The notes beneath the pieces were generated by a model. That model was not told the origin of the DNA. It was given only the letters and a program-made list of their open reading frames with translations, and did not search any database. Below are positions 1 through 14,744 of a stretch of 38,092 nt of DNA, in pieces. Numbering within the stretch: the first letter of the stretch is position 1; each line of letters begins with the position of its first letter. The stretch is from an uncultured Eubacteriales bacterium (GTDB lineage: Bacteria; Bacillota; Clostridia; Christensenellales; Aristaeellaceae), in contig OMZY01000026.1 of assembly GCA_900315675.1 (NCBI GenBank), positions 1 to 38,092 on the forward strand, written 5' to 3'. The translations under genes were made by a program, and so were the position numbers.

Positions 1-1
1 C

Positions 2-280
2 GAACGGCGTCAATCGATCTCCCAGGCAGAGTTTGAGAGCATCTGCCATGAAGTCCTTTCAAACCATTCAAACATAATCGATTGCTGGTTTGAAGAACCT
101 GGCATCGTGCATGTAGTTTATCCTTCCCATTCCGGGAAAACAAAAAATGGAGCCACCCTGTATTTCGGTGAAAAAGGATATATCACCTACGCGGGATGGA
201 AACATAACGCTGGAAGTAATGAAGGCATTTTTATCGGTGAAGAGATCAGCAGAAAGATTCAGTGCGCACTGTATGAGTAA
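2..280 (+). CDS. Hypothetical protein, 3' part only
   Basis: A reading frame is open from the left edge of the window and closes with TAA at 278-280, giving 92 residues of the C-terminus. It is rich in aromatic and polar residues (for example CWFEEPGIVHVVYPS) and has no motif I recognise. A clear intrinsic terminator follows 28 bp later, which supports it as the real end of a gene. The N-terminus, start codon and full length lie outside the window. Function unknown; base composition is AT-rich like the rest of the island. Confidence 0.55.
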   Translation, partial: ERRQSISQAEFESICHEVLSNHSNIIDCWFEEPGIVHVVYPSHSGKTKNGATLYFGEKGYITYAGWKHNAGSNEGIFIGEEISRKIQCALYE

Positions 281-308
281 ACAAATCTCCGCATAATACC
301 TGAGGATT

Positions 309-344
309 GTCTCCCCAAATCTATGATGGGGAGACTCTTTTTTT
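309..344 (+). terminator. Intrinsic terminator
   Basis: Perfect 8-bp stem GTCTCCCC / GGGGAGAC with an 11-nt loop, followed directly by TCTTTTTTT. It closes the transcript of the partial gene at 2-280. Confidence 0.85.
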
Positions 345-480
345 GTGAAAGCAGGTGCGAAACCGTTCTACATCAATCTATTAACACTATGCTCCATAAA
401 GCCCTTCAAAAGATTTCTATGGGTAATTGCACTGGCGGCACTTACAAAGTAAAATATACATGGCTTATATGCAAGGATGA

Positions 481-672
481 CAAGACAAAAGGAACCATGC
501 GCTCACACGGCCTAACGGAGTATTCCAGCAGCGGAATATTTGGATTGTTGACAGGAGCAGCCAGGTGATTGCCTACTACAACGGCACGTCCGGAGAAACC
601 CAAAACACCATTGATTATGCTAAGAAGCTCTGCACCGAAGTGATTGTTTCAATTAATCGAATTAACGGTTGA
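481..672 (+). pseudogene. Remnant of a SLOG/DUF1273-like protein gene
   Basis: In this frame the translation contains RNIWIVDRSSQVIAYYNG followed by TSGETQNTIDYAKKL, then a stop at 670-672. The pattern (R-N-x-W-x-V-D-x-S, V-I-A-x-Y-x-G-x-S-G-x-T-x-N-T-I-x-Y-A) matches the C-terminal half of the YpsA/DUF1273 group of the SLOG (Rossmann-like nucleotide-binding) superfamily. An in-frame TGA lies at 478-480 and no start or glycine-rich N-terminus can be found upstream, so only about 60 codons survive. The frame immediately precedes the ribosome binding site of the next gene. I infer a decayed gene; family assignment is from motif memory, not a search. Confidence 0.6.
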
Positions 673-704
673 ATGAAGAAACAATGAGGATGGAGGATAA
701 GATC

Positions 705-1835
705 ATGACCAGATTAACTTGTGAAATGTGCGGTAGTTCAGATTTCGTTAAACAGGATGGCCTATTTGTCTGCCAATCGTGTAAATGCAAGTACACCCCT
801 GAAGAAGCTAAAAAAATATTGGTAGTCAATCCTATAAAGATTGATCAGTCGGAAAAGCTGAAGAATCTATTTGATCTGGCCCGACGAGCAAAAGATGAAG
901 GCAATAGCGAGAAGGCTATAGAATACTATGATCACATACTGGAAGAAGAACCTCGGAATTGGGAAGCTGCCTTCTTTTCTGTATACTTCCATGCGCTATC
1001 ATGCAGGGTCTACGAAATACCATCTGAAACACAGAAGTTGATAAATTCTGTAAATAATGTGGCAGATTTGATTGAGTCGATTGAAAGTAATGACGAAAAG
1101 AAGACGGCGTATTTAGAAATTGCAATCCGGATTTTGGCCTTTTCAAAAGCTGTGTACGATCATGCCTATTCAATTTATTTGCCTATTCGTACAAATATCC
1201 ATAACGGAGTTACAGATAATTATATGCCACCTGAAGTGCTAAATGCGCAAGAAGATTTTACAAATCGTGTGTCGCCTTTAGTTTCGCTAGATGTAGCATG
1301 GGCCGAAAAACTTGATCAAATCTGTCTGGATCGCTATCAGGATGATCTTGAATTAAGGCAAAAAATAGTAGAGCTGTGGAAGGATGCCGTCAGTATTACT
1401 CATACTATATACAATTGGGAGAACAAGCGACAACAGGCAGTGACAGAAGAAAGTATAAATAGAATTGCAGACCCATATATTGAAAAGATAAAAAGGTATG
1501 AGCCAAATTATGTTGATCCAAAGACCAAATTAAAAAAAGCACAAACCGCAATGCAAGAATCACAGAAAGGATGTTATGTAGCTACGGCGGTATATGAGTC
1601 ATATGATTGCCCACAGGTTTGGACCTTGCGGCGCTACAGGGATTTCAAATTGGCTAGAAGTGTCTTTGGAAGAGCCTTTATTCGTATTTATTATGCAATT
1701 AGTCCTACTGTGATCAAATGGTTTGGCAGTACAAAGTGGTTTAAAAGGTTCATGAAAACTAAGCTAGATGCTTTCGTCACAAAACTCATTCAAGAAGGAT
1801 TTTCTAATACACCATACACAGATCAAAAGTGGTAA
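705..1835 (+). CDS. Zinc-ribbon/TPR protein with CFI-box-like C-terminus
   Basis: A 376-residue protein. The N-terminus has a TFIIB-type zinc ribbon (C6-x2-C9 and C23-x2-C26), then one or two TPR-like helices around residues 54-97 (LFDLARRAKDEGNSEKAIEYY), a helical middle without recognisable motif, and from residue 289 a module beginning GCYVATAVY with LRRYRDFKLA and GRAFIRIYYAISP. That last module follows the pattern of the CFI-box C-terminal domain (C-F-I-A-T-A-x-Y-G-S, L-R-x-F-R-D, Y-Y-x-x-S-P), here with CYV instead of CFI. I chose ATG 705 because GGAG at 692-695 lies about 9 nt upstream; a TTG at 669 is possible but has no ribosome binding site. Biochemical role unknown. It is AT-rich and sits between two gene remnants, so it is probably accessory cargo. 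Confidence 0.75.
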   Translation: MTRLTCEMCGSSDFVKQDGLFVCQSCKCKYTPEEAKKILVVNPIKIDQSEKLKNLFDLARRAKDEGNSEKAIEYYDHILEEEPRNWEAAFFSVYFHALSCRVYEIPSETQKLINSVNNVADLIESIESNDEKKTAYLEIAIRILAFSKAVYDHAYSIYLPIRTNIHNGVTDNYMPPEVLNAQEDFTNRVSPLVSLDVAWAEKLDQICLDRYQDDLELRQKIVELWKDAVSITHTIYNWENKRQQAVTEESINRIADPYIEKIKRYEPNYVDPKTKLKKAQTAMQESQKGCYVATAVYESYDCPQVWTLRRYRDFKLARSVFGRAFIRIYYAISPTVIKWFGSTKWFKRFMKTKLDAFVTKLIQEGFSNTPYTDQKW

Positions 1836-2003
1836 TTATCGGCTTGCAATTCTAAAGAGGCAGAACTTTCTCATGTGATTCAAGCCATTCATGTTCCTAG
1901 TGATTATGCTAATGGAACAATCCGAATCACTCTTGGAATGGATAACACCAAGGATCAGATGAATATTTTAGCACAGCAAATCAAACATATAATACTGCAT
2001 TAA
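1836..2003 (+). pseudogene. C-terminal remnant of a cysteine desulfurase (NifS/IscS/DndA type)
   Basis: Directly after the TAA of the preceding gene, and in the same frame, the sequence reads LSACNSKEAELSHVIQAI, then PSDYANGTIRITLGMDNTKD and a helix ending at TAA 2001-2003. This matches the active-site loop (S-A-C-S/N-S) and the R-x-S/T-L-G-x-x-N-T end of NifS-like PLP enzymes that remove sulfur from cysteine. The PLP lysine and the whole N-terminal three quarters are missing, so this is a fragment, not an enzyme. There is no ribosome binding site or start codon. It is either a deletion scar or a readthrough extension of the CFI-box-like protein; the former is more likely. Confidence 0.7.
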
Positions 2004-2054
2004 AGCTAAGGAGAATTAATAAATCATATTATAGTTTATATTATTTATGCTATT

Positions 2055-2477
2055 TCACGCATTTTCCACATTGGTTAATTCCATTATCCTTTTCGATATT
2101 TTATATGGAATAACAAATCTCCCTATTCCACGCTCATATTCATCTATATAATCCATCAATTCACTATCGTTAATACATTTATACGAAATTAATATAAGAT
2201 TTTGCTTTAATTTGACTATTCCTTGTAAAGAATCTGCATATTGCTTTATAAAATGTGTGCTTGGATTACGTGTGCCTGCTTCGACGGCAGCTATTAAGCT
2301 TCTTGTAAGATGATCCTCGCTGTTATCTGCGATAGTCTGAGCTGAAACATGCATAAATACTCTGAAAAATCGTAACACCCTCATAACTTGTGTTCTGTTT
2401 TCTTTATTATTCAAATTGATGCCATGTTGCGTTATGGGATTCTCGCTTTTTATAATATCCATACAGTCTATTTTCAC
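2055..2477 (-). CDS. XRE-like helix-turn-helix regulator
   Basis: A 140-residue protein. Residues about 35-85 resemble an XRE/Cro helix-turn-helix: a recognition-like stretch SAQTIADNS, then SLIAAVEAGTRNPSTHFIKQYADSL, which matches the usual I-x-x-x-E-x-G-x-R-x-P-S-x-x-x-L-x-x-Y-A-x-x-L pattern. The C-terminal half is unknown. The start shown is a GTG at 2475-2477; an ATG at 2460-2462 is an alternative, and neither has a convincing ribosome binding site. It is divergent from the DAC-domain gene at 2669, with about 190 bp between them that contain an imperfect palindrome, so it may control that gene and itself. Regulator role is inferred from fold and position. Confidence 0.6.
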   Translation of the reverse strand: MKIDCMDIIKSENPITQHGINLNNKENRTQVMRVLRFFRVFMHVSAQTIADNSEDHLTRSLIAAVEAGTRNPSTHFIKQYADSLQGIVKLKQNLILISYKCINDSELMDYIDEYERGIGRFVIPYKISKRIMELTNVENA

Positions 2478-2505
2478 ACCTATCTGTCTTTTTAGAATGA
2501 TTAAT

Positions 2506-2523
2506 AGTATTATACCTTATACT
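2506..2523. promoter_or_regulatory. Imperfect palindrome in the divergent intergenic region
   Basis: AGTATTATACCTTATACT: 6 of 9 base pairs match, with perfect outer arms AGTAT/ATACT. It lies 29 bp upstream of the XRE-like gene and overlaps a TATAAT on the minus strand (2511-2516) that could be its -10 box. A candidate operator for that regulator. Confidence 0.35.
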
Positions 2524-2630
2524 GTCAATCTTCAAATGATCAGTCCACATTTTACTGGCTGGATATTAATAGTGTCTAATCTGATTATTTAAGACACGGA
2601 AAAAACATCTTTAGTGCTAAAGAGTAATGT

Positions 2631-2636
2631 TATAAT
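2631..2636 (+). promoter_or_regulatory. Candidate -10 box for the DAC-domain gene
   Basis: A consensus TATAAT 33 bp upstream of the chosen start codon. The matching -35 hexamer (TCTTTA at 17-bp spacing) is poor, which would suit a promoter needing an activator. Confidence 0.45.
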
Positions 2637-2668
2637 CAAAAAACAGGAATATGAAAGAGAGCGTTTTT

Positions 2669-4078
2669 ATGGCAGAAGAATTTTATCCCAAAAATTTTGT
2701 TGACGAATATAAGCATTTTATTACAACGTATATTCTCCCCATTCTTGGAATAACAAATAATAATCTTGAAGATTGTACTGAAACAATAGACATAGGCAAT
2801 CATAGTAATGTTCGAACAAAAAATTGCATTACTGTTTTCTCTGCTTTTCAACATGATTTTTTTATGTTGAAAGATGTAGATGTGTCATCTGATAACATTG
2901 GTTTGGCACACAATCTTGTCGAAGCATTTACAAAGGTTTCACAATATCGATTTGATGGCACGTCAAAGATACAAATAGATTATTCGTCCGGAGGATTACG
3001 TAAAACCAATTATAAATATGCTATTCAAAAGGGTATATGCGACTGGTGCGCTGGTACCGACAACGTGAAGTTTTACGAACTATTTGAAGAACTAGAAAAA
3101 TGGTCTGTGAAAACATATGAAGGAAAAAAAGTAACCCTCGGGTTTATTTACGATCCTAAAGCTCAACCTTTATACGAGGAGAGTGATGACAGGTTCTTCA
3201 ATTGGCTTGATTTTATTAGCGATGATTATGCTGCGACGCTTACCGACTGTATTCACTCTGTGATTCAGCTTGATAAAAATTGCAACTACGTTAATCATCT
3301 TTCTATAACAAAAGGCAATGTGATCCCGGAATATACTCTGTCTCATCTGCTTCCATATCGTTTTGCACATATAATTGATACAGAAGTATATGGAAATCGC
3401 GTAGGTGTTTTCCTATTGAATAATGGGGACATTATTCTATCGAAACAAAGATCCATCAAATTCATCAAGCGAAACTACAAGTGGTTGAATTTTAGCTATG
3501 AAGCGTTTTCGAATAAGATTAGAGACAAACTCGAACTGTTTACAATTAATGATGAATTGCTTCAACAAGTGTACGCATCCACTCTTGACGTATCTCTAGC
3601 TCATACAGGTGGTATTATAGCTGTTGTCTCTGATATTTCTTCGATTACTGTCCCGGAGGAAAACGCTATCTTGAGCCCGTTTGATAATATACTAGCTCGT
3701 CCAAGCATGTTAGAGCTCAAAGAAGGTATAAAAAAGACAGAACAGCATAAAAGTATTAACGATAAAGAAATCGATAAACGCATACTGAAACGGAAAGCTA
3801 TTCTGAGTTTAGTCAATGAGCATTCATTTCAAACAATCGATCGCAAACTTCGTACTGAACTTATTTCTATGGATGGCGCATGCATCATAGATCCTAATGG
3901 TAGGTTTCTAGCCATAGGTGCAATCATTCAGAATGATAGCGGTTCATCGGGTGGCGGTAGAAGCGCTGCAGCAAAGAAACTCTCACAATATGGTTTCTCG
4001 ATAAAGATCTCCACTGATGGCTATATTATACAGCATCAAATAAATGATTCGTGGCCTTATATGCACATATTGACATAA
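2669..4078 (+). CDS. Putative nucleotide sensor with DisA-like (DAC) C-terminal domain
   Basis: A 469-residue protein. The N-terminal 290 residues have no motif I recognise. From about residue 295 the sequence resembles the DisA_N/DAC fold: a helix and strand (TLDVSLAHTGGIIAVVSD), then MDGACIIDPNGRFLAIGAII with the DAC-type D-G-A at 402-404, then GGGRSAAAKKLS at 429-440 and IKISTDGYI at the end. In active diadenylate cyclases the second motif is G-T-R-H-R; here it is GGGRSAA, so cyclic-di-AMP synthesis is unlikely and ligand sensing is more plausible, as proposed for the DACN-type relatives in bacterial conflict systems. ATG 2669 is preferred because GAAAGAGAG lies about 8 nt upstream; ATG 2651 has its AGGA only 2 nt away. 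AT-rich, divergent from an XRE-like regulator. Family call is by motif, not by search. Confidence 0.6.
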   Translation: MAEEFYPKNFVDEYKHFITTYILPILGITNNNLEDCTETIDIGNHSNVRTKNCITVFSAFQHDFFMLKDVDVSSDNIGLAHNLVEAFTKVSQYRFDGTSKIQIDYSSGGLRKTNYKYAIQKGICDWCAGTDNVKFYELFEELEKWSVKTYEGKKVTLGFIYDPKAQPLYEESDDRFFNWLDFISDDYAATLTDCIHSVIQLDKNCNYVNHLSITKGNVIPEYTLSHLLPYRFAHIIDTEVYGNRVGVFLLNNGDIILSKQRSIKFIKRNYKWLNFSYEAFSNKIRDKLELFTINDELLQQVYASTLDVSLAHTGGIIAVVSDISSITVPEENAILSPFDNILARPSMLELKEGIKKTEQHKSINDKEIDKRILKRKAILSLVNEHSFQTIDRKLRTELISMDGACIIDPNGRFLAIGAIIQNDSGSSGGGRSAAAKKLSQYGFSIKISTDGYIIQHQINDSWPYMHILT

Positions 4079-4124
4079 GTGTCACAACTTGTTACTCATT
4101 GACATAAGTGTAACAAGTTGTTAC
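4069..4124. repeat. Two 27-bp direct repeats carrying a palindrome
   Basis: Copies at 4069-4095 and 4098-4124 share ATTGACATAAGTGT and differ at two positions. The second copy contains TGTAACAA-G-TTGTTACA (4109-4125), a perfect 8+8 bp palindrome around one base; the first copy carries a one-base-degenerate version. The first copy overlaps the stop codon of the DAC-domain gene. Tandem operator half-sites are the simplest reading. Confidence 0.8.
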
Positions 4125-4127
4125 AAT
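4099..4127 (+). promoter_or_regulatory. Strong promoter with operator in its spacer
   Basis: TTGACA (4099-4104), a 17-bp spacer and TACAAT (4122-4127). The perfect palindrome at 4109-4125 fills the spacer and part of the -10 box, so a bound repressor would block RNA polymerase. Confidence 0.65.
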
Positions 4128-4133
4128 ATACCT

Positions 4134-4274
4134 CGTAAAAGAGAAGTCGGCGCAGTGATACGTCGCTCGCGTCGGATTATGAGGTTTCTGATAATCAGAT
4201 TCACTCATAAGCAAGACAGGTATAGGCCTGTACAAGAAACTTGGAATAGGATGCTATTCTGGGTTTCTTTTTTT
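4134..4274 (+). ncRNA. Candidate small RNA between operator-promoter and terminator
   Basis: The stretch from the expected start of transcription to a perfect terminator is about 140 nt. No frame in it has a convincing start, ribosome binding site or conserved protein. It contains short inverted repeats (CTGATAATCAG; ACAGG...CCTGT near 4217-4232). I infer a regulated small RNA or untranslated leader of a lost gene. A 107-codon frame runs through the segment and past the terminator, which argues against it being coding. Confidence 0.35.
4235..4274 (+). terminator. Intrinsic terminator of the candidate small RNA
   Basis: A 15-bp stem (4235-4249 with 4254-4268, three G-U pairs, no bulge), loop GATG, and a run of T to 4274. 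Confidence 0.8.
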
Positions 4275-4418
4275 GTGATGATATCATTATCAATGCCAGT
4301 AACCGGGATTGACGTTGGGGGGAGCTTTACGTTGATCGGGGCAGCTGAATCCTGTATTGTAAAGTTAATTACCTTGCATGATTCACATATTTGTTTTGTG
4401 CTTAACGGGTAAAGAGAA

Positions 4419-4450
4419 AGCCTTGTAGATACATGTCTACAAGGCTTTTT
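4419..4450. terminator. Bidirectional terminator at tRNA-Ala 3' end
   Basis: Perfect 11-bp stem AGCCTTGTAGA / TCTACAAGGCT with a 6-nt loop. TTTTT follows on the plus strand; on the minus strand the stem lies just downstream of the tRNA and is followed by TTCTCTTT. It insulates the island from the tRNA. Confidence 0.8.
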
Positions 4451-4451
4451 G

Positions 4452-4524
4452 TGGAGCATAGGGGAGTCGAACCCCTGACCTCGACAATGCGAATGTCGCG
4501 CGCTACCAACTGTGCTAATGCCCC
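4452..4524 (-). tRNA. tRNA-Ala (anticodon CGC)
   Basis: A 73-nt cloverleaf on the minus strand. Acceptor GGGGCAT pairs with ATGCTCC and contains the G3-U70 wobble that identifies tRNA-Ala. The D-arm is GCACAGTTGGTAGC, the anticodon stem CGACA/TGTCG with loop TTCGCAT (anticodon CGC, reading GCG), and the T-arm AGGGG-TTCGACT-CCCCT. The CCA end is not encoded. It marks the boundary between the AT-rich island and the GC-rich chromosome. Confidence 0.93.
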
Positions 4525-4617
4525 AAATGGTAAAATATACGACCATATTTTACATCGATCACTATGGCCGTCCTTCGTGATCTGTCTCATATAGGGTTAC
4601 AGTCTCGGACTCGTGTC

Positions 4618-4639
4618 CTACCAACTGTGCTAATGCCCC
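4618..4639 (-). repeat. 22-nt duplicate of the tRNA-Ala 5' end
   Basis: On the minus strand this reads GGGGCATTAGCACAGTTGGTAG, exactly the first 22 nt of the tRNA at 4452-4524, then diverges with no anticodon or T arm. It lies in a segment between two copies of CATATAGG (4588-4595 and 4639-4646). It looks like a recombination scar at the tRNA. Confidence 0.75.
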
Positions 4640-4794
4640 ATATAGGTTCCCGGATCTGCCGGGTGAGTTTCCTCGACTTTAACGTCCAGAGGTTTGGGAC
4701 GTGATCTTTTTGGGATCTTTGCTGCGCAGAAACCTAAAAGGCTTCATGCGCAAGCGGCAGTATATCACAGCAAAGACGAAAAAGCAAGGAATTT

Positions 4795-4857: not shown

Positions 4858-6267
4858 ATGGCTGTGCGGATGCGGGCGTGGCTGCTTGGATTATGTGTGG
4901 CCTGTCTGCTCTTTTTTATTTTCCCCGCACTGGCGGAAACAGCGGAGCTGAGCATTTCCCTGCCGGAGACGGTGAGGGGATATACGCCCTGTGAAATTGT
5001 GATCCGGTCTCCGGCGGAAGGAGAGGCGGAACTGAAGCTGTTTGACATGACCCAGAACCTGTGGCTGGTGAGGAAGGAACAGCTGAAGGAAGGGGAAAAC
5101 ATCCTGCCCTGGGACGGACTGGGGGAATACGGCGAGCGGATGTTCGCCGGACCGTACCGCTTTGTGGTGAAGCTGAAAACGGCGGACGGAAAGGAACTGG
5201 CCAAGGAAAAGAAATTCAACATCAGCGGAACAACGGAGACGCTGGTTTACGCGCTGCCTTCTTCAGAAACCCTGTATCTGGAAGGCGGGGACAAATGGTT
5301 TGTGGAATGCTACGTGTCGGCCAAATGCCTGGTGGCGATGGAAGTGAAGGATTCCAAAGGAGAGACGGTTTACTTCCGGGATGAAAGCATCCGGGATCCG
5401 GACGGGATTTCCCTCTACTGGAACGGGGCACTGGACAGCCGGCGCAGAATTGCACCAGGGGAATATACAGTCCGGATGTGGAGCAAGCTGAACCCGGACT
5501 ACGACCATACCTTCCCGCTGACTGTGAAGGAAAAGGCACCGGAAAAGCCCGCCATCCAGGCGACGGGCCCGGTCATGCCGGAGCGGGGCATGAGCGACGC
5601 GGAAATATGGGAAATCATGATGAAACCCTCGGTGGTGATCAATGACAACGGCACCTTCCGCCGGTTCAACCTGTACGGCGTTCCGAAGACGGGAACCCGG
5701 GCCATCGGTACCCTTCGGTGCGCCCTGCAGGGATTGGAAATCCTGGAAACGGAGGACGCGTGGGCGCATGTGCGGGCGGCCCGGCACGAAGACGGGCAGA
5801 TGATGGAAGGATATTACCTGCTCAAGTCGCTGACGGTGTACGAGCCGAATCCGCACTACGGCGTGCTGATCGACAAGAAGGAGCAGACGCTGACGGTGTT
5901 CGAGGACGGAAAGCGGATCGGCACCGTGCCGGTTTCCACCGGGCTGGTGACCCCGGGAAACACCTACCGGGAAACCCCGGCGGGGGCCTTCCTGACGGAC
6001 GTGCATACAGGAGCCAGTTTTGCCCAGGAGGGATACCGGTACGAATATCCCCTGCGGTATGACGGCGGCAACTATATCCACGGCGTGGGATACGTCCGGA
6101 ACGGACGGTCCAGGGATTATTCCACCAACCAGCAGCAGCTGGGAAAGAAGGCCTCCCATGGGTGCACGAGGGTCAGCCTTTTTCTGCGGGAAGACAGCCC
6201 GATCAACATGTACTGGCTGTGGATTCACCTGCCGTATCACACCCGGATTATCGTCCTGGACGATTAA
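4858..6267 (+). CDS. Secreted L,D-transpeptidase (YkuD family)
   Basis: A 469-residue exported enzyme that would form or exchange L,D cross-links in peptidoglycan at the cell surface. It has an N-terminal signal segment (residues 5-27, WLLGLCVACLLFFIFPALAE), two all-beta regions with a FlgD-Ig-like pattern (ILPWDGLGEYGERMFAGPY and a second copy-like stretch near 190-215), an SH3-like middle (about 255-330), and a YkuD domain from about residue 335. The catalytic motif is SHGCTRV with Cys436; the upstream conserved His is in YIHGVGYV. ATG 4858 has AAAGGAGAGAGG upstream and lies behind a strong promoter. Monocistronic. Family assignment is secure; the exact cross-link made is not visible. Confidence 0.88.
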   Translation: MAVRMRAWLLGLCVACLLFFIFPALAETAELSISLPETVRGYTPCEIVIRSPAEGEAELKLFDMTQNLWLVRKEQLKEGENILPWDGLGEYGERMFAGPYRFVVKLKTADGKELAKEKKFNISGTTETLVYALPSSETLYLEGGDKWFVECYVSAKCLVAMEVKDSKGETVYFRDESIRDPDGISLYWNGALDSRRRIAPGEYTVRMWSKLNPDYDHTFPLTVKEKAPEKPAIQATGPVMPERGMSDAEIWEIMMKPSVVINDNGTFRRFNLYGVPKTGTRAIGTLRCALQGLEILETEDAWAHVRAARHEDGQMMEGYYLLKSLTVYEPNPHYGVLIDKKEQTLTVFEDGKRIGTVPVSTGLVTPGNTYRETPAGAFLTDVHTGASFAQEGYRYEYPLRYDGGNYIHGVGYVRNGRSRDYSTNQQQLGKKASHGCTRVSLFLREDSPINMYWLWIHLPYHTRIIVLDD

Positions 6268-6305
6268 ATGTACCTTTTCCTATTAAAGTGAAGGAAAAAA
6301 AGTAA

Positions 6306-6336
6306 TTGACATCGAAATAAAACTATTTAGTATATT
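6306..6336 (+). promoter_or_regulatory. Candidate promoter of deoC
   Basis: TTGACA at 6306-6311 and TATATT at 6331-6336 with a 19-bp spacer; TAGTAT at 6328-6333 (16-bp spacer) is an alternative -10. It lies in the only AT-rich stretch before the gene. Confidence 0.5.
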
Positions 6337-6370
6337 ATGCGGATTTTACCGCTTGAAGGAGGATGGATCC

Positions 6371-7102
6371 ATGGCTCTGACCCCGAAAGATATCGCCGCG
6401 ATGCTGGATCACTCAACGCTTCAGCCCTGGCTGACAGAAGACGATATACGACGCGGCTGCGAGGTCGCCCTGAAATACCAGACAGCGAGCGTCTGCGCCC
6501 GTCCCTGCGATGTGCCGATCCTGAGTGAAATGCTGAAGGGCAGCCCTGTGAAGGTCTGCACCGTCATCGGTTTCCCCCACGGCGCGCACCAGACCGCCAT
6601 TAAGGTGGCCGAGGCCAAACAGGCGCTGGCGGAGGGCTGCGAGGAGCTGGACATGGTCATCAACATCGGCAAACTGAAGCACGGTGACGCTGACTATGTG
6701 GAAAATGAGATCCGTCAGCTGGCGGAGACCGCCCACGCGGCCGGCGCCATCCTGAAGGTGATTCTCGAAACCTGCTACCTGACGGAAGAGGAGAAGATCC
6801 TGGCCTGCAGGCTGAGCACGAAGGCCGGCGCGGACTTCGTCAAGACCAGCACGGGCTACGGCAGCGCAGGATGTACGATCGAGGACCTGAAGCTGATGCG
6901 GGCGAATACGCCGGAGACGATGCGAATTAAGGGCTCCGGCGGCATCCGGGACCTGGATACGGTCCTTTCCGCTCGGGCCGTCGGAGCAAGCCGCTGCGGT
7001 GTGAGCGCCACGGAGAAGATCATGGCGGAAGCCGAAAAGCGGTACGCGGAAGGCACGCTGAAAGAGATTGAAGATCTCAAAGAGATGTCTGGTGGATATT
7101 GA
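6371..7102 (+). CDS. deoC: Deoxyribose-phosphate aldolase
   Basis: A 243-residue class I aldolase that cleaves 2-deoxyribose 5-phosphate to glyceraldehyde 3-phosphate and acetaldehyde in deoxynucleoside breakdown. The Schiff-base lysine is K158 in DFVKTSTGYG; the assisting residues are D94 in EELDMVINIG and K187 in RIKGSGGI. Length and TIM-barrel motifs are typical of bacterial DeoC. ATG 6371 has AAGGAGG at 6356-6362; an upstream TTG (6353) would overlap that site. No deoA, deoB or nucleoside phosphorylase gene lies nearby, so it appears to stand alone, 71 bp before ileS with only a repeat between them. Confidence 0.95.
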   Translation: MALTPKDIAAMLDHSTLQPWLTEDDIRRGCEVALKYQTASVCARPCDVPILSEMLKGSPVKVCTVIGFPHGAHQTAIKVAEAKQALAEGCEELDMVINIGKLKHGDADYVENEIRQLAETAHAAGAILKVILETCYLTEEEKILACRLSTKAGADFVKTSTGYGSAGCTIEDLKLMRANTPETMRIKGSGGIRDLDTVLSARAVGASRCGVSATEKIMAEAEKRYAEGTLKEIEDLKEMSGGY

Positions 7103-7118
7103 GTCCGAAGGACAGACA

Positions 7119-7153
7119 AATTCAGAATTAAGAATTCAGAATTCAGAATTATA
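7119..7153. repeat. AT-rich word array between deoC and ileS
   Basis: Several tandem copies of the word AATTCAGAATT or a one-base variant. Same family as the arrays at 11593, 13392, 14745 and 14848. The gap is too short for a T-box leader before ileS. Confidence 0.75.
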
Positions 7154-7173
7154 ACTGGAAGAGGTTATCGACT

Positions 7174-10100
7174 ATGTACACTAAAGTTGCGACAGATATG
7201 AATTTTGTGTCCCGGGAGCAGGCTATCGCGAAGATGTGGAATGAGAAGGACATCATCCGCAAGAGCTATCATCACCGGGACGGCAGTGAACGCTTTACCT
7301 TCTTTGACGGACCGCCGACCGCGAACGGTAAGCCCCACATCGGCCACATCGAGACCCGCGTGATCAAGGATCTGATCCCGCGGTACCAGACCATGAAAGG
7401 CAAGAGCGTGCTGCGCAAGGCCGGCTGGGACACCCACGGCCTGCCCGTTGAGCTGGAAGTGGAAAAGGCCCTGGGCCTGGACGGAAAGCCCCAGATCGAG
7501 CAGTACGGCATCGAGCCCTTCATCGGCGAATGCAAGAAGAGCGTGTGGAAGTACCTGCACGAGTGGGAAAAAATGTCCGAGAAAGTCGGCTACTGGGTCG
7601 ACATGGAGCATCCCTATATCACCTATGAAAACTACTATATCGAATCCGAGTGGTGGAGCCTGAAGCAGATCTTTGAAAAAGGACTGCTGTACCAGGGCCA
7701 CAAGATCGTGCCCTACTGCCCCCGCTGCGGAACCGCCCTGTCCAGCCACGAAGTGGCCCAGGGATACAAGAACGTGAAGGAAACTTCCGCGTTCGTCCGT
7801 TTCGCCGTGAAGGGCGAGGAAAACACCTACCTGCTGGCCTGGACCACCACACCGTGGACCCTGCCGAGCAACCTGGCGCTGTGCGTGAACCCCCACGACA
7901 CCTACTGCAAGTTCACCGCGCCGGACGGAAAGAAATACATCATGGCCAAGGCCCTGACCGACAAGGTTTTTGAAGGACAGGAACTGGCCTTTGAAGCTGA
8001 GTTTGTCGGCACCGACCTGAAGGGCATGGAGTACGAGCCCCTGTACCGCTTCGTGGAGCCGGACAAGAAGGCCTGGTTTGTGGTCTGCGACAACTACGTC
8101 ACCATGGAAGACGGTACCGGTATCGTGCATATCGCTCCCGCTTTCGGTGAAGACGACAACCGGGTCTGCCGGGAGAACGGCGTGCCCTTTGTAAATCTGG
8201 TCAATACCCAGGGTAAATTCATCGAGGAAACCACCTGGGCCGGCACCTTCGTGAAGGACGCGGATCCCCTGATCTTGCAGGACCTGAAGGAACGCGGACT
8301 GCTGTTTGCCGCTGTGCCCTTCGCCCATGACTATCCCTTCTGCTGGCGCTGCGACACGCCCCTGCTGTACTACGCACGGCCGACCTGGTTCATCAAGATG
8401 ACCGCCCTGCGGGACAACCTGGTGCGCAACAACCGGACCATCAACTGGATGCCGGACAACATCAAGGAAGGCCGGATGGGCAACTTCCTGGAGAACGTCA
8501 TCGACTGGGGCCTGAGCCGTGAACGCTACTGGGGAACGCCCCTGCCGGTATGGAAGTGCGAGGAAGGCCACCTGCACGTGATCGGCTCCATCAAGGAACT
8601 GCGCGAGATGGCCATCACCGATCCGGGTCCGGATATCGAGCTGCACCGTCCCTTCATCGACGCGGTAACCATCCGCTGCCCTGAGTGCGGCAAGGAAATG
8701 CACCGGGTGAAGGAAGTTATCGACTGCTGGTACGATTCCGGTTCCATGCCTTTCGCCCAGTGGCACTATCCCTTTGAGCACAAGGAAGAATTTGAAGCGA
8801 ACTTCCCCGCGGACTTCATCTCCGAAGCCATCGACCAGACCCGCGGATGGTTCTACACCCTGGAAGCCATTTCCACGCTGCTGTTTGACAAGGCGCCCTT
8901 CAAGAACTGTATCGTGCTGGGTCACGTGCAGGACGCGGAAGGCCGCAAGATGTCCAAACACCTGGGCAACGTGGTGGATCCCTTCGTGATGCTGGATAAG
9001 TTCGGCGCGGACGCGCTGCGCTGGTACTTCTACACCACCTCCGCTCCGTGGCTGCCCAGCCGCTTCAGCGAGGAAGCCGTGCAGGAAGGCCAGCGGAAGT
9101 TCCTGGCCACGCTGCAGAACACCTACGCCTTCTTTGCCATGTATGCCCAGATCGACGGATTCGATCCGCTGGCCCATCCGCTTGAAAAGACCGAGCTGAC
9201 CCTGATGGACCGCTGGATCCTGAGCAAGCTGAATACCCTGATCGACCAGGTGGACGATGACCTGGCCAACTACCGGGTGACCGAAAGCGCCAACAAGCTG
9301 GCCGCCTTCGTGGACGAGCTGAGCAACTGGTACGTGCGCCGGGGCCGTGAACGCTTCTGGGGCAAGGGCATGGGCGGAGACAAGGAAGCCGCTTTCGCCA
9401 CGCTGTATCACGTGCTGGTGACCCTGTCGAAGCTGTGCGCACCCTTCATCCCGTTCCTGGCGGAGGAGATCTACCAGAACCTGGTGGTGAACAACGTGCC
9501 CGGCGTTCCGGAAAGCATACACCTGTGCGACTTCCCGGTGGCGGACAAGACGGCCGTGAACACCGATATCGAAGAGCAGATGGACGCCCTGGTGGAAGCT
9601 ATCCAGCTGGGCCGCGCCTGCCGCAACACCGCGAACCTGAAGGTTCGCCAGCCCGTGCAGAAGCTGTACGTGAAGGGCGCCAAGTTCGAAAAGGCCTACC
9701 AGGAGCTGTGCGAGGATGAGCTGAACGTGAAGGAAGTCATCTTCACGGATGACGCCCGCGCCTTTACCACCTACCAGCTGAAGCCGCAGATGCGGACCCT
9801 GGGACCGAAGTACGGCAAGCTGCTGGGCAAGATCGGCCAGCACCTGGCCGGCATGGACGGCAACGACGTAGTGGACGCCTTCGGCCGCGGCGAGGAAGTT
9901 TCCTTCATGATCGACGATACTGAAGTGAAGCTGAACAAGGACGACGTGCTGACAACGCCCATGAACAAACCCGGCTTCATCGCGGCGGAAGACCGCGGCG
10001 TAACCGTGGTGCTGGATACCAACCTGAATGACGAACTGATCCGCGAAGGCTACGCCCGCGAGGTAATCTCCAAGGTGCAGACCATGCGCAAGGACGCCGG

Positions 10101-10299
10101 CTTTGAGGTGACGGACCGCATCAGCCTGTACTATGAAGGCGATGACGAGCTGGCCGCCGCGCTGGAAGCCTACGGCGAAATGATCGGACGGACCACACTG
10201 GCAACCTCCATGGCACGGGGAACCGCGCCGGAAGGCAGCGTAAGCCAGCAGTGGGATATCAACGGCAAGAAAGCCGAACTGGGGATCGCTAAAGCATGA
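7174..10299 (+). CDS. ileS: Isoleucyl-tRNA synthetase
   Basis: A 1041-residue class I aminoacyl-tRNA synthetase that charges tRNA-Ile in the cytoplasm. The HIGH signature is PHIGH at residues 54-58 and the KMSKS signature is GRKMSKHLGN near 590-599. WDTHGLPVELEVEK, the editing-domain TTPWTLPSN, DWGLSRERYWGTPLP and several Cys pairs (YCPRCG, CWRCD, IRCPECG) fit IleRS. The length and C-terminal layout fit the longer, eukaryote-like type of bacterial IleRS, often linked to lower mupirocin sensitivity; that link is from family knowledge. GGAAGAGG lies 9-10 nt before ATG 7174. The stop codon overlaps the next gene by 4 bp. No T-box leader is visible. Confidence 0.96.
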   Translation: MYTKVATDMNFVSREQAIAKMWNEKDIIRKSYHHRDGSERFTFFDGPPTANGKPHIGHIETRVIKDLIPRYQTMKGKSVLRKAGWDTHGLPVELEVEKALGLDGKPQIEQYGIEPFIGECKKSVWKYLHEWEKMSEKVGYWVDMEHPYITYENYYIESEWWSLKQIFEKGLLYQGHKIVPYCPRCGTALSSHEVAQGYKNVKETSAFVRFAVKGEENTYLLAWTTTPWTLPSNLALCVNPHDTYCKFTAPDGKKYIMAKALTDKVFEGQELAFEAEFVGTDLKGMEYEPLYRFVEPDKKAWFVVCDNYVTMEDGTGIVHIAPAFGEDDNRVCRENGVPFVNLVNTQGKFIEETTWAGTFVKDADPLILQDLKERGLLFAAVPFAHDYPFCWRCDTPLLYYARPTWFIKMTALRDNLVRNNRTINWMPDNIKEGRMGNFLENVIDWGLSRERYWGTPLPVWKCEEGHLHVIGSIKELREMAITDPGPDIELHRPFIDAVTIRCPECGKEMHRVKEVIDCWYDSGSMPFAQWHYPFEHKEEFEANFPADFISEAIDQTRGWFYTLEAISTLLFDKAPFKNCIVLGHVQDAEGRKMSKHLGNVVDPFVMLDKFGADALRWYFYTTSAPWLPSRFSEEAVQEGQRKFLATLQNTYAFFAMYAQIDGFDPLAHPLEKTELTLMDRWILSKLNTLIDQVDDDLANYRVTESANKLAAFVDELSNWYVRRGRERFWGKGMGGDKEAAFATLYHVLVTLSKLCAPFIPFLAEEIYQNLVVNNVPGVPESIHLCDFPVADKTAVNTDIEEQMDALVEAIQLGRACRNTANLKVRQPVQKLYVKGAKFEKAYQELCEDELNVKEVIFTDDARAFTTYQLKPQMRTLGPKYGKLLGKIGQHLAGMDGNDVVDAFGRGEEVSFMIDDTEVKLNKDDVLTTPMNKPGFIAAEDRGVTVVLDTNLNDELIREGYAREVISKVQTMRKDAGFEVTDRISLYYEGDDELAAALEAYGEMIGRTTLATSMARGTAPEGSVSQQWDINGKKAELGIAKA

Positions 10300-11594
10300 A
10301 AATTGCCTTGATCGGGCAGGACGTTCCAACGCTCCTGCCCGCCCTTTTAACTGACCTGCTTTTTGCCGGGGCGGAAGCGAACGCCGAAGTCACGGTGGAG
10401 GAAGGCAATCCTGCCATGCAGGAGCTGCTGCAGGGCTACGGGGAAAAGATTTTCGCAAAGGCCGGAAAGGGAGGATCCTTTCAGGCTTTTGCCGAGCGGG
10501 AAAAGGTGCTGGAGGGCGCCGACTGCGTGATTTACGCCGGCGACTGCCAGGCTGCCAGCCGCTTCTTCCAGGACCGGAACGCCCTTGGCTCCGATGACGA
10601 GGACAACCCCGGACTGACGGACCAGGCGAGGGTGAACGGCGGCATCGAAGGCCTGCTGCACGCGCTGCGGGCCGGAGAGATGATCCTGAAGCTCTGCGAC
10701 GACATGGACAAAGCCTGCCCGAAGGCGCTGGTGATCAACCTGGGACAGCCGGTGGCGAGAACCACCGAAGTGTTCGAGGAGCGGGGCTACCGCTGCTACG
10801 GCATGGGCCGGACGCCTATGCGGGGCGCCAACGGTATCGACACCTACGCCAAACGGCTGCAGATCAAGCCGGAAAACGTGCAGGCGGTTACTGCCGGCCT
10901 GCCGGGGTTCGCTTTCCTGACCGAAATGAAGGACGGAAAGACGGACCTGCTGAACAAACTGAAAAAAGCCGCGGACAACGGCGAACTGGGCAGCCTGGCC
11001 CGGCGGTGGCTGGGCTGGTGGGACGCGATCCCGGTGGGGGATGTGACGGACCACGCGGAGTTCCTGCCCGCCCAGGAAGGCTTTATCCCGGATGAACGCC
11101 CCGAGTTCGGGGAAACCGTGGAGAAACGCAAGGAACGCATCCTGTATATGAACACCGTGCGGGAGCAGGGGGCGGACAGCCGCGAGGGCGCCATGGCCCA
11201 GCTGCTGCTGCTTTCCAAAGTGCCGCCGGTGCGGCCGATGAAGCTGGCCCTGGCTCTGCTGCGCAGGGAAACGGCGGAGATTCCCGCCGTGGCCCGGAAG
11301 AACAACGGAGTCCTGCCGCAGCTGCCGAAGGACGCGATCATCGAGACCGCCCTGGTGCTGAAGGACGGGAAGGATGAAACGCCGGCTATCCGGGTGCCGG
11401 AAGCGCTGGCGGATATCCTGGGCGAGGTGGACAACGCGAACCGGCTGGCGGCAAAGGCTGCCTTCGGCGACCGGGAAGCCCTGCGGGAATGCGTGGAAAC
11501 GGATCCCGCCCTGGACGGACTGGACAGGCTGTATGTGCTCGACGTCGTGGAAGCACTGATCCGTATGCATGAAGATGTGCTGACAAAGTTTTAA
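10296..11594 (+). CDS. GH4-like protein with degenerate cofactor and metal sites
   Basis: A 432-residue protein with the overall layout of NAD- and metal-dependent family 4 glycosidases: a Rossmann start (MKIALIG), a middle reading ARVNGGIEGLLHALR and CPKALVINLGQPVARTTEVF, and a C-terminal half with NNGVLPQLPKDAIIE and DPALDGLDRLYVLDVVEALI. The usual GGGS dinucleotide loop is replaced by GQDV, the usual T-N-P by G-Q-P, and the G-L-C-H metal-ligand motif by YGMGRT, so classical GH4 catalysis is doubtful. It starts at ATG 10296, overlapping the ileS stop (ATGA), so it is translationally coupled to ileS. That partner is unusual for a sugar hydrolase. Fold family likely; function unknown. Confidence 0.65.
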   Translation: MKIALIGQDVPTLLPALLTDLLFAGAEANAEVTVEEGNPAMQELLQGYGEKIFAKAGKGGSFQAFAEREKVLEGADCVIYAGDCQAASRFFQDRNALGSDDEDNPGLTDQARVNGGIEGLLHALRAGEMILKLCDDMDKACPKALVINLGQPVARTTEVFEERGYRCYGMGRTPMRGANGIDTYAKRLQIKPENVQAVTAGLPGFAFLTEMKDGKTDLLNKLKKAADNGELGSLARRWLGWWDAIPVGDVTDHAEFLPAQEGFIPDERPEFGETVEKRKERILYMNTVREQGADSREGAMAQLLLLSKVPPVRPMKLALALLRRETAEIPAVARKNNGVLPQLPKDAIIETALVLKDGKDETPAIRVPEALADILGEVDNANRLAAKAAFGDREALRECVETDPALDGLDRLYVLDVVEALIRMHEDVLTKF

Positions 11595-11703
11595 TTCAGA
11601 ATTATGAATTCAGAATTCAGAATTATGAGTGGTCAGCCTCCTTTGAAAGCTACAGGCAGAAGATCATAACAATTGTGAACGATGAATTGTGAATGATGAA
11701 TTG
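11593..11703. repeat. Paired AT-rich word arrays between the GH4-like and methyltransferase genes
   Basis: Left array 11593-11628 is built from AATTCAGAATT/AATTATGAATT words. The right array 11669-11703 is built from AATTGTGAA(C/T)GATG words, in mirrored orientation to the downstream arrays at 13392 and 14745. About 40 bp of unique sequence lies between. The right array ends directly at the ribosome binding site of the next gene. Confidence 0.65.
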
Positions 11704-11716
11704 AAAGGAACCGTTT

Positions 11717-12580
11717 ATGTTTTTAGCTGACAGCTGGACAGATTACGAAGTCCTGGATACCGGCGACGGCGAAAAGCTGGAGCGCTGGGGCGATATTATC
11801 CTGCGCCGGCCCGATCCGCAGACGATCTGGCCCAAGGCCCAGGAAAAGCTGTGGAAGAGCGCCCAGGCTCACTATCACCGGAGCGAACGCGGCGGCGGAG
11901 AATGGGAATTCCTGAAGAAGCTGCCGGAACGCTGGACTGTGAAGCACGGAGACCTGAACTTCTACGTGCGGCCCACGGGCTTCAAGCATACGGGCCTTTT
12001 CCCGGAACAAGCGGCCAACTGGATCTGGATGAGCAACCTGATCCGAAAGGACGGACGGAAAGATATCAAGGTGCTGAACCTGTTCGGCTATACCGGCGGA
12101 GCCACGCTGGCTTGCGCCGCCGCGGGCGCCCATGTGACCCATGTGGACGCGGCGAAGGGCATGGTACAGTGGGCAAAGGAGAACCGGGAGCTGAGCAAAC
12201 TGCCGGAAGACCGGTTCCGCTGGATTGTGGAGGACGCCCTGCGCTTTGTGCAGCGGGAGCTGCGGCGCGGCAACAGCTATGACGGCATCCTGATGGATCC
12301 GCCCAGCTACGGCCGGGGACCCTCCGGAGAAGTATGGAAACTGGAAAACGAACTGTACGGGCTGATTGACACCTGTGCCCAGGCGCTGAGCAAGGAGCCC
12401 CTGTTCTTCCTGATCAACAGCTATACCACAGGCTTCCAGGCCAGCGTGCTGAGCAACATGCTGGAGAAGTGCGTGGTGAGCCGCTTCGGCGGAAAGGTGG
12501 ACAGCGAGGAGCTGTGCCTGCCTGTGACCGCGGGCGGGGTGCTGCCCTGCGGCGCCAGCGGGAGGTGGCAGCGTGATTGA
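11717..12580 (+). CDS. Class I SAM-dependent methyltransferase (RlmI-like)
   Basis: A 287-residue Rossmann-fold methyltransferase. Motif I is VLNLFGYTGGATLACAAAGA (residues about 116-135), the acidic ribose-binding end follows in THVDAAKGMVQWAKEN, and motif IV is DGILMDPPSYGRGPSGEVW. This layout matches the Methyltrans_SAM group near the 23S rRNA cytosine methyltransferase RlmI, but the PUA domain is absent, so the target base is not certain. AAAGGA lies 7 nt before ATG 11717. Its end overlaps the following pseudouridine synthase by 8 bp, which suggests a two-gene RNA-modification operon. Confidence 0.82.
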   Translation: MFLADSWTDYEVLDTGDGEKLERWGDIILRRPDPQTIWPKAQEKLWKSAQAHYHRSERGGGEWEFLKKLPERWTVKHGDLNFYVRPTGFKHTGLFPEQAANWIWMSNLIRKDGRKDIKVLNLFGYTGGATLACAAAGAHVTHVDAAKGMVQWAKENRELSKLPEDRFRWIVEDALRFVQRELRRGNSYDGILMDPPSYGRGPSGEVWKLENELYGLIDTCAQALSKEPLFFLINSYTTGFQASVLSNMLEKCVVSRFGGKVDSEELCLPVTAGGVLPCGASGRWQRD

Positions 12581-13370
12581 CCTGATCGGGGATATCCTGT
12601 ATGAGGACAACCAGGTGCTGGTGGCGGTCAAGCCTCCGAACATGCTTTCCCAGGCGGACAGAACCGGGGATCCGGATATCCTGTCCGTATTGAAGAATTA
12701 TATTAAAGAGAAATACCACAAGCCCGGCAATGTATACCTGGGCCTGGTGCACCGGCTGGACCGGCCGGTCGGCGGGCTGATGGTGTTTGCCAGGACCAGC
12801 AAGGCCGCGGCGCGGCTGGCAGTACAGCTGCAGGAGCACGACATCGGCCGGCAGTACCTGTGCGTGGTGACCGGCGAAGTGCCGAACGAGTTTACCCTGA
12901 CCGACTACCTGATTCATGACGAGATCAAGAACAGGGAAGTGGTCTGCGAGGCGGACGAGAAGGGCGGCAAAATGGCCATCCTCCACGGACGCTGCATTGA
13001 CCGCCGGAACGGAACGGCCCTGTGCGCCATCCGCCTGGAGACCGGACGGAAGCACCAGATCCGGGCGCAGATGAGCAACATCGGGGCGCCGCTGTGGGGA
13101 GACAACCGCTACGGCACCGGGATTCCGGGACAGCAGATTGCCCTGTGGGGCTACAAGCTGACCTTCCGCCATCCGACGCAGAATGAACTGATGACCTTCC
13201 ACTCCCTGCCGGAGGGCGGCATCTGGGACACTTACGCGGATCTGCTGACGATCCCCGAGGATGTGGACATGCCCCGGGAACGGCCGGCACTGGTGCTGCG
13301 GGAAGAAGTTGTGCAGAAGCTGGAAGAGTTTGACAAGTTCAAGCCGATCAAAACAGACGAGCTGCTGTAA
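12573..13370 (+). CDS. RluA-family pseudouridine synthase
   Basis: A 265-residue enzyme converting uridine to pseudouridine in rRNA or tRNA. The catalytic aspartate is in HRLDRPVGGLMVF, and GRKHQIRAQMSNIGAPLWGD is the conserved C-terminal substrate motif of the RluA family. There is no S4 domain, as in RluA or TruC. GTG 12573 has GGGAGG 8-9 nt upstream and overlaps the methyltransferase end. The exact site modified cannot be told from sequence. The last codons and stop form one arm of a perfect 10-bp hairpin. Confidence 0.88.
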   Translation: MIDLIGDILYEDNQVLVAVKPPNMLSQADRTGDPDILSVLKNYIKEKYHKPGNVYLGLVHRLDRPVGGLMVFARTSKAAARLAVQLQEHDIGRQYLCVVTGEVPNEFTLTDYLIHDEIKNREVVCEADEKGGKMAILHGRCIDRRNGTALCAIRLETGRKHQIRAQMSNIGAPLWGDNRYGTGIPGQQIALWGYKLTFRHPTQNELMTFHSLPEGGIWDTYADLLTIPEDVDMPRERPALVLREEVVQKLEEFDKFKPIKTDELL

Positions 13371-13391
13371 TGCAGCAGGAACTGCTGCATT

Positions 13392-13392
<1 letters not shown>
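13368..13392. repeat. Hairpin spanning the stop codon of the pseudouridine synthase
   Basis: TAATGCAGCA (starting at the stop codon) pairs perfectly with TGCTGCATTA at 13383-13392 across a 5-nt loop. No T-run follows; an AT-rich word array begins immediately. Confidence 0.7.

Positions 13393-14744
<1,352 letters not shown>

Follow-up and report, generated by a model that had tools for sequence, protein, structure and literature searches.

A DAC-fold protein with an altered catalytic motif and a structured RNA behind its gene in an uncultured Eubacteriales bacterium

Organization of the locus

The window analyzed here is a 38,092-nt stretch of contig OMZY01000026.1 (assembly GCA_900315675.1) from an uncultured Eubacteriales bacterium of the Aristaeellaceae. 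Close to its left end, the forward strand carries a gene (2669–4078; open frame, alternative ATG at 2651) for a 469-amino-acid protein with a predicted diadenylate cyclase (DAC) fold. The gene lies in an AT-rich region (1–4445) whose left end is cut by the contig end and which ends at a tRNA-Ala(CGC) gene (4451–4524). The GC content is 0.31–0.42 over positions 1–4000 versus 0.55–0.62 over positions 5001–13000. The tRNA gene and its right flank are kept in all four sibling genomes examined, but none of the four had a match to the left of the tRNA gene within the 9–13 kb fetched. Because the homology with the siblings starts at the tRNA gene and nothing is shared leftward, positions 1–4445 constitute a tRNA-linked variable region, in agreement with an earlier sequence-only reading that had described an AT-rich tRNA-linked island. 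On the other side of the tRNA gene, the window has an extra stretch (4531–4644) whose end (4618–4644) repeats the 5' end of tRNA-Ala; this stretch is present in sibling G066 and absent from the other three. To the left of the DAC-fold gene, positions 669–1835 encode a zinc-ribbon/TPR-like protein in which NCBIfam detects a CFI-box-CTERM domain (E 3.4e-19). No CBASS gene was found among the scanned neighbors in the window, whose contig ends 2.7 kb upstream.

An ORF on the reverse strand (2055–2477) is divergent from the DAC-fold gene and had been read as an XRE-like regulator. The ORF is there, with a weak helix-turn-helix (HTH) signal: HTH_3 at E 0.021, short of the cut-off, and HTH_VI in PADLOC at E 1.5e-5. 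A putative operator (4069–4124, forward strand) consists of two tandem 27-nt repeats (4069–4095 and 4098–4124) that are 93% identical and contain palindromes at 4081–4095 and 4110–4124. The first copy overlaps the stop codon of the DAC-fold gene, as previously described. The palindrome GTAACAANTTGTTAC occurs twice at the repeats and elsewhere in the 38 kb only at one site with three mismatches, that is, 3 matches versus 0.62 expected.

The DAC-fold protein

DAC enzymes are known to make c-di-AMP. In an AlphaFold2 model of the protein (mean pLDDT 82, pTM 0.84), the C-terminal domain (residues 290–469; 3536–4075) has a DAC fold, and by this prediction it is a DAC-type domain with an altered catalytic motif. 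A first, diverged DAC-like domain (residues 126–274; 3044–3490) is visible in the predicted structure only, so the chain probably contains two DAC-like domains. Two features of a canonical DAC are present, namely the predicted fold and the DGA motif (D402–A404; 3872–3880). The third, (G)TRHR, is missing: GGGRSAA (G428–A434; 3950–3970) stands in place of GTRHRAA, and the canonical RHR reads GRS. The sequence-only reading had already named the open frame and both motifs and had proposed a DAC-like C-terminal domain that had lost the GTRHR motif, and the present analysis bears this out. The second DAC-like domain, indicated by the model, goes beyond that reading.

Has the protein lost its activity along with the motif? 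None of the 12 of 13 alignment rows that reach the site has RHR (L004 stops before it). Relatives have GGGR, GGAR or SGGR there, and the replaced site is invariant across a 10-row alignment of homologues. Since the replaced site is itself conserved, altered activity is as possible as lost activity. The earlier proposal of a sensor rather than a synthase is thus borne out for the missing motif, with a sensor being one option next to an enzyme of altered activity; the DAC of DS-2, for comparison, depends on its predicted catalytic residues. We know of no activity for a GGGR site.

The protein matched no Pfam family at E<=1, PF02457 (canonical DAC) included, and no Pfam or PADLOC family at that threshold, so it has no ToxN- or Abi_2-type domain. 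PF02457 matched one of five members of one homologue alignment (E 7.6e-4). The Pfam DACNx names denote sensors, and a literature search for them returned nothing relevant.

Relatives and their distribution

A tblastn search against plasmid and phage records gave four relatives and a scan of genome contigs gave nine more. Whole-genome searches found seven genomes of the small-genome genus g51 (L007–L013), a distant relative (L014) and little else. The gene is rare and patchy. The protein was found in 1 of 45 genomes within the genus, which is the window's own, and in 1 of 200 genomes in the family, 9 of 391 in the class and 1 of 398 in the phylum; in the orders of three relatives it was found in 3 of 160, 3 of 196 and 1 of 43 genomes. 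The centre genome is part of each tally, and fragments account for some of the matches. A canonical DAC (PF02457) was present in five of the seven non-g51 hosts tested and in none of the three g51 genomes tested. Two further module hosts (G1009 and G1010) likewise showed no canonical DAC, possibly due to incomplete assemblies.

A viral origin of the protein was considered and rejected because no relative was found in IMG/VR and a structure search of BFVD returned nothing at E<=0.001. The sole record labeled as phage (L005, MT837587) is an unverified, unannotated scaffold in which the gene beside the homologue resembles, by eye, a bacterial surface protein.

A conserved structured RNA behind the gene

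The region past the stop codon contains a promoter (TTGACA-17-TACAAT, 4099–4127) and an intrinsic terminator (stem and T run, 4234–4275), both on the forward strand. Given the terminator stem at 4234–4269 and its T run, the predicted transcript would span about 4134–4275, or roughly 140 nt, as the sequence-only reading had it. The promoter scores 11 of 12, the top of 13 in the region. Taken alone, such signals are at the chance level, as the region has 13 promoter-like sites versus 11.7 expected by chance and 2 terminator-like sites versus 1.9. The promoter and terminator at 4099–4275 rise above chance because they are conserved in relatives.

A promoter, a short folded predicted transcript and a terminator follow the stop codon at 11 of 12 Bacillota loci outside g51. 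The twelve are the window, L002, L014 and L015–L023, all with readable downstream DNA. The g51 loci were counted apart, and the set leaves out L005 (DNA ends 24 nt past the stop), the decayed L035, L038 (a short weak match, E 1.3e-6) and the alphaproteobacterial L003 and L004. The single miss is L014, a distant relative with a profile match over 88 columns, at which no RNA was seen, the best promoter score was 8 and no terminator was found. The two alphaproteobacterial relatives likewise yielded neither an RNA of this kind nor its promoter or terminator. Of the 11 module genes, 7 have a promoter scoring at least 11 of 12 at most 130 nt from the stop, versus none of 109 further ORFs at these loci; at a score of at least 10 of 12, the counts are 10 of 11 and 12 of 109. 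Of the 11 RNA loci, 10 gave a terminator stem with a T run in a scripted search, L016 via a weak 6-bp stem. The terminator of L022 lies beyond the range of the script and was seen as an 18-bp stem. The promoter of L022 is ~340 nt from the stop, behind an apparent palindromic insertion, which by eye is MITE-like, covers ~20–330 nt past the stop and separates the gene from the RNA promoter.

Evidence for a structured RNA also comes from an alignment of seven of these RNAs (window, L015, L016, L017, L018, L020 and L023). They have a common layout in which a bulged hairpin (P1), a GA linker, a second hairpin (P2), a G(C/T)RMR linker and a third hairpin (P3) precede the terminator. In the window, P1 (4148–4174) consists of 6 bp, a 1-nt 3' bulge, 5 bp and a tetraloop; P2 (4177–4210) comes after the GA, which is invariant in the seven RNAs; and P3 (4216–4231) follows the linker GCAAG (4211–4215). 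Two-sided change was found at 21 of 24 pairs in a set of seven RNAs, two of them close (L020 and L023), with the tested structure derived from the same sequences. In this set, 95.6% of cells were paired versus 74.5% in shuffled and 27–45% in slid controls, and the covariation score was 0.768 versus 0.326 +/- 0.039 for shuffled alignments (reached in 0 of 500) and 0.08–0.16 for slid ones. The number of further pair types gave a weaker signal (35 versus 29.5; 9 of 500 shuffles reach 35). RNAalifold recovered the same helices unaided and predicted 23 pairs, 20 of them with two-sided change. The folding-energy z-scores range from -4.9 to -1.1 across the seven RNAs and are unremarkable in three of them (-1.1 to -1.7). 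Thus, the three-hairpin structure is conserved and its place 3' of the gene is constant, a result that extends the sequence-only reading from a single transcript to a conserved structured family. A small coding gene was rejected, because the variation is of the base-paired kind and the lengths of the core vary.

Not all of the RNAs fit this alignment. The L019 RNA, present in an earlier alignment and dropped from the covariation count, is by eye a variant with a longer P1 and the same GA-P2-GCA layout. The RNAs of L002, L021 and L022 resemble each other and differ from the rest. In the decayed copy L035, a 41-amino-acid C-terminal ORF and much of the RNA remain; its P1 is imperfect, and it was missed by RNA model R1.

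Model R1 gives the seven aligned RNAs 64–78 bits. At E<=1e-10 it matched only at the gene, in six of nine host genomes, these six being among the sequences from which R1 was built. In the L019 host it gave a weak match elsewhere only, in the L018 host a second weak match, and in the L021 and L022 host genomes no match. Among 391 genomes of the class, searched with stricter filters, it found the RNA of the window and one weak match (E 0.0094). Weak R1 matches of 12.7–28.4 bits at L011, L021 (6916–6988), L031, L032 and L061 were judged false by eye; those at L032 and L061 overlie coding ORFs. Rfam 15 had no match at the RNA in the window and ten RNA-bearing relatives, and at E<=10 its only matches in the window were far below the gathering threshold.

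Gene neighborhoods of the relatives

Do the divergent XRE-like gene and the operator belong with the protein and the RNA? The sequence-only reading had them in one shared neighborhood. Among the upstream neighbors of 11 homologues (L002, L003, L007, L009, L015–L018 and L021–L023), an HTH was found only at L007, and this signal is a sigma factor that is not divergent. The upstream DNA of L019 and L020 is shorter than a gene, and the other g51 loci, L004, L005 and L014 fall outside this count. In the 130 nt past the stop, the palindrome has at least 4 mismatches at every one of the 13 other loci. The XRE gene and the operator were therefore rejected as parts of the module, being conserved in neither the upstream genes nor the palindromes of the relatives scanned; what the homologues share of the proposed neighborhood is the RNA.

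Defense genes lie near only some of the loci, and these neighbors agree with the link to conflict genes suggested earlier. At the A. vitis relative (L003, 6622–13546), the DAC-like gene is flanked on one side by a divergent Cap15-type receptor gene and on the other by a type II CBASS with cyclase, E1-E2 (Cap2), JAB (Cap3) and phospholipase genes. At L015, a Lamassu-like LmuAB precedes the gene and a UG17 reverse transcriptase (best DRT match; 12259–13602) follows it. Next to L021 are a helicase and an SngB of the Shango type, the one Shango gene covered there. A reverse transcriptase at L023 (4804–5823) has UG17 as its best DRT match and comes with an RT-18 RNA, and L017 has Fic and AAA_21 genes nearby. 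L018 and L019 are, by eye, surrounded by housekeeping-looking genes. The ORF lists of the Bacillota loci contain no second protein gene that is constant beside the DAC-fold gene.

The g51 loci have a setting of their own. At all seven, rnpB (RNase P RNA) comes immediately after the DAC-like gene. Upstream, six of the seven have a sigma-factor-like ORF (domain tested in L007), and L009 has an O-methyltransferase. Since the upstream gene differs in L009 and rnpB is kept, the rnpB side is the constant side. With rnpB behind it at 7 of 7 loci, the g51 gene looks like a housekeeping gene, not a defense gene.

Comparison with known systems

The NCBIfam profile NF053872 (DS2_3_antiphage), which from its name we take to be the DAC encoded by the third gene of DS-2, gave weak matches in 7 of 10 homologues (12–17 bits versus a cut-off of 630). 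The window protein, at 14.2 bits against the same cut-off, did not reach the threshold. DS-2 (DefensePredictor) is composed of a phospholipase, a cGAS and a DAC. Defense was abolished when either of two predicted DAC catalytic residues was mutated, and 15 of 30 DAC homologues adjoin CBASS (PMC13092281). The likeness to DS-2 consists of a DAC-type protein in phage defense, weak DS2_3 matches around the DGA segment, and the CBASS beside the A. vitis relative, which like DS-2 includes a phospholipase. However, the window protein is far under the profile cut-off, has no CBASS gene seen alongside and comes with a dedicated RNA. Canonical DACs (DisA, CdaA and DacM; PF02457) have RHR where the window protein has GRS; unlike them, the window protein has no PF02457 match, probably has two DAC-like domains and has a putative RNA partner.

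In type III toxin-antitoxin systems (ToxIN and kin), an RNA adjoins a protein. The present locus is similar in having an RNA beside a protein that it might inhibit, and differs in its DAC fold, in having no tandem-repeat antitoxin array and in an RNA that lies 3' with its own promoter. In other words, an adjacent conserved structured RNA is present, whereas a ToxN- or Abi_2-type protein is not. Among systems in which an RNA neutralizes a protein, AbiF with RCd22 is the closest functional parallel: a lone defense-type protein with an associated structured ncRNA that neutralizes the toxin through direct interaction (PMC12373285). AbiF, however, is an Abi_2-family protein and the window protein has no such domain. 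Searches of the open-access literature turned up no account of a DAC-fold protein paired with an RNA of its own, and the novelty would lie in this pairing.

Possible mechanism and alternative explanations

The best explanation for the locus is a two-part module: the DAC-fold protein, and a structured RNA that is dedicated to it and has a separate promoter immediately downstream of the gene. The fold, the motif change, the promoter with its RNA and terminator, the covariation, the confinement of strong R1 matches to the gene, the defense neighbors, the DS2_3 matches and the rarity count for it. Counting against it are the small number of aligned RNAs, the ordinary folding energy of three of them, the low DS2_3 scores, the divergent RNAs (L002, L021, L022 and L019), the lack of an RNA at L014, the rnpB context in g51, the alphaproteobacterial forms without the RNA, the patchy defense neighbors and the lack of an IMG/VR relative. 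How would the two parts work together? It appears somewhat probable that the RNA forms a complex with the protein and controls its state, and the case for a defense of the module against phages is evenly balanced.

The favored model is that a steadily made RNA would keep the protein silent, in the manner of RNA antitoxins and the AbiF RNA. Infection would then destroy the RNA, titrate it or halt its production, and the protein would be freed. The two DAC-like domains of the freed protein would cooperate on nucleotides as an internal pseudo-dimer, making, binding or depleting a signal, and this action would lead to cell arrest. Because no second protein gene is constant in the Bacillota loci, the protein would act itself or via host nucleotide signaling. 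As a whole chain, with an RNA inhibitor released on infection, the model is tentative and slightly more apt to fail than to hold. A bolder form, in which a pseudo-dimer with GGGR.AA for RHR is held and released by the three-hairpin RNA and makes or consumes a nucleotide other than c-di-AMP, would be a new class of RNA-controlled immune enzyme; it is a doubtful possibility. The pairing of a DAC fold with a dedicated small RNA would link nucleotide signaling and RNA control in a single small unit; it provides a testable RNA family and a motive for seeking RNAs beside other DAC and CBASS genes.

The main rival to the inhibitor reading is that the RNA is an activator or cofactor. In this case the RNA would switch on the protein, a nucleotide cyclase or transferase, and serve as its catalytic partner. 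Such an enzyme would suit a DAC fold with a conserved replacement site, the position of the A. vitis relative between Cap15, which is a cyclic-dinucleotide receptor, and CBASS, and the promoters scoring 10–12 of 12 that 10 of 11 loci have at a distance of at most 130 nt. However, the Bacillota forms have no constant effector gene alongside and we are aware of no activity for the GGGR site; an RNA-activated enzyme is unlikely. Another possibility, the sensor of the sequence-only reading, is a nucleotide-sensing regulator, in which a pair of catalytically inactive DAC domains would bind a cyclic nucleotide and relay its state via the RNA to other targets. The loss of RHR, the lack of a constant effector gene and a terminated RNA that could work in trans all agree with it, but a motif that is conserved and not drifting in the 10-row alignment argues against it and such a regulator is distinctly improbable.

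The g51 loci raise the question of a mobilized housekeeping factor, whose g51 gene would replace the missing canonical DAC or work with RNase P, and from which the mobile forms would derive. The position directly before rnpB in all seven g51 genomes, even in L009 with its different upstream gene, fits this origin, as do the three of three tested g51 genomes without PF02457. Against it, g51 is one clade and may therefore represent one event, five of seven tested non-g51 hosts have a canonical DAC and the gene is sporadic outside g51; this origin is very unlikely. Finally, an independent small RNA that is merely positioned behind the gene is scarcely credible, given that the genomes searched hold no strong RNA match away from the gene and that the same gene-RNA order recurs across several host groups, in places of the genome that are unrelated to one another.
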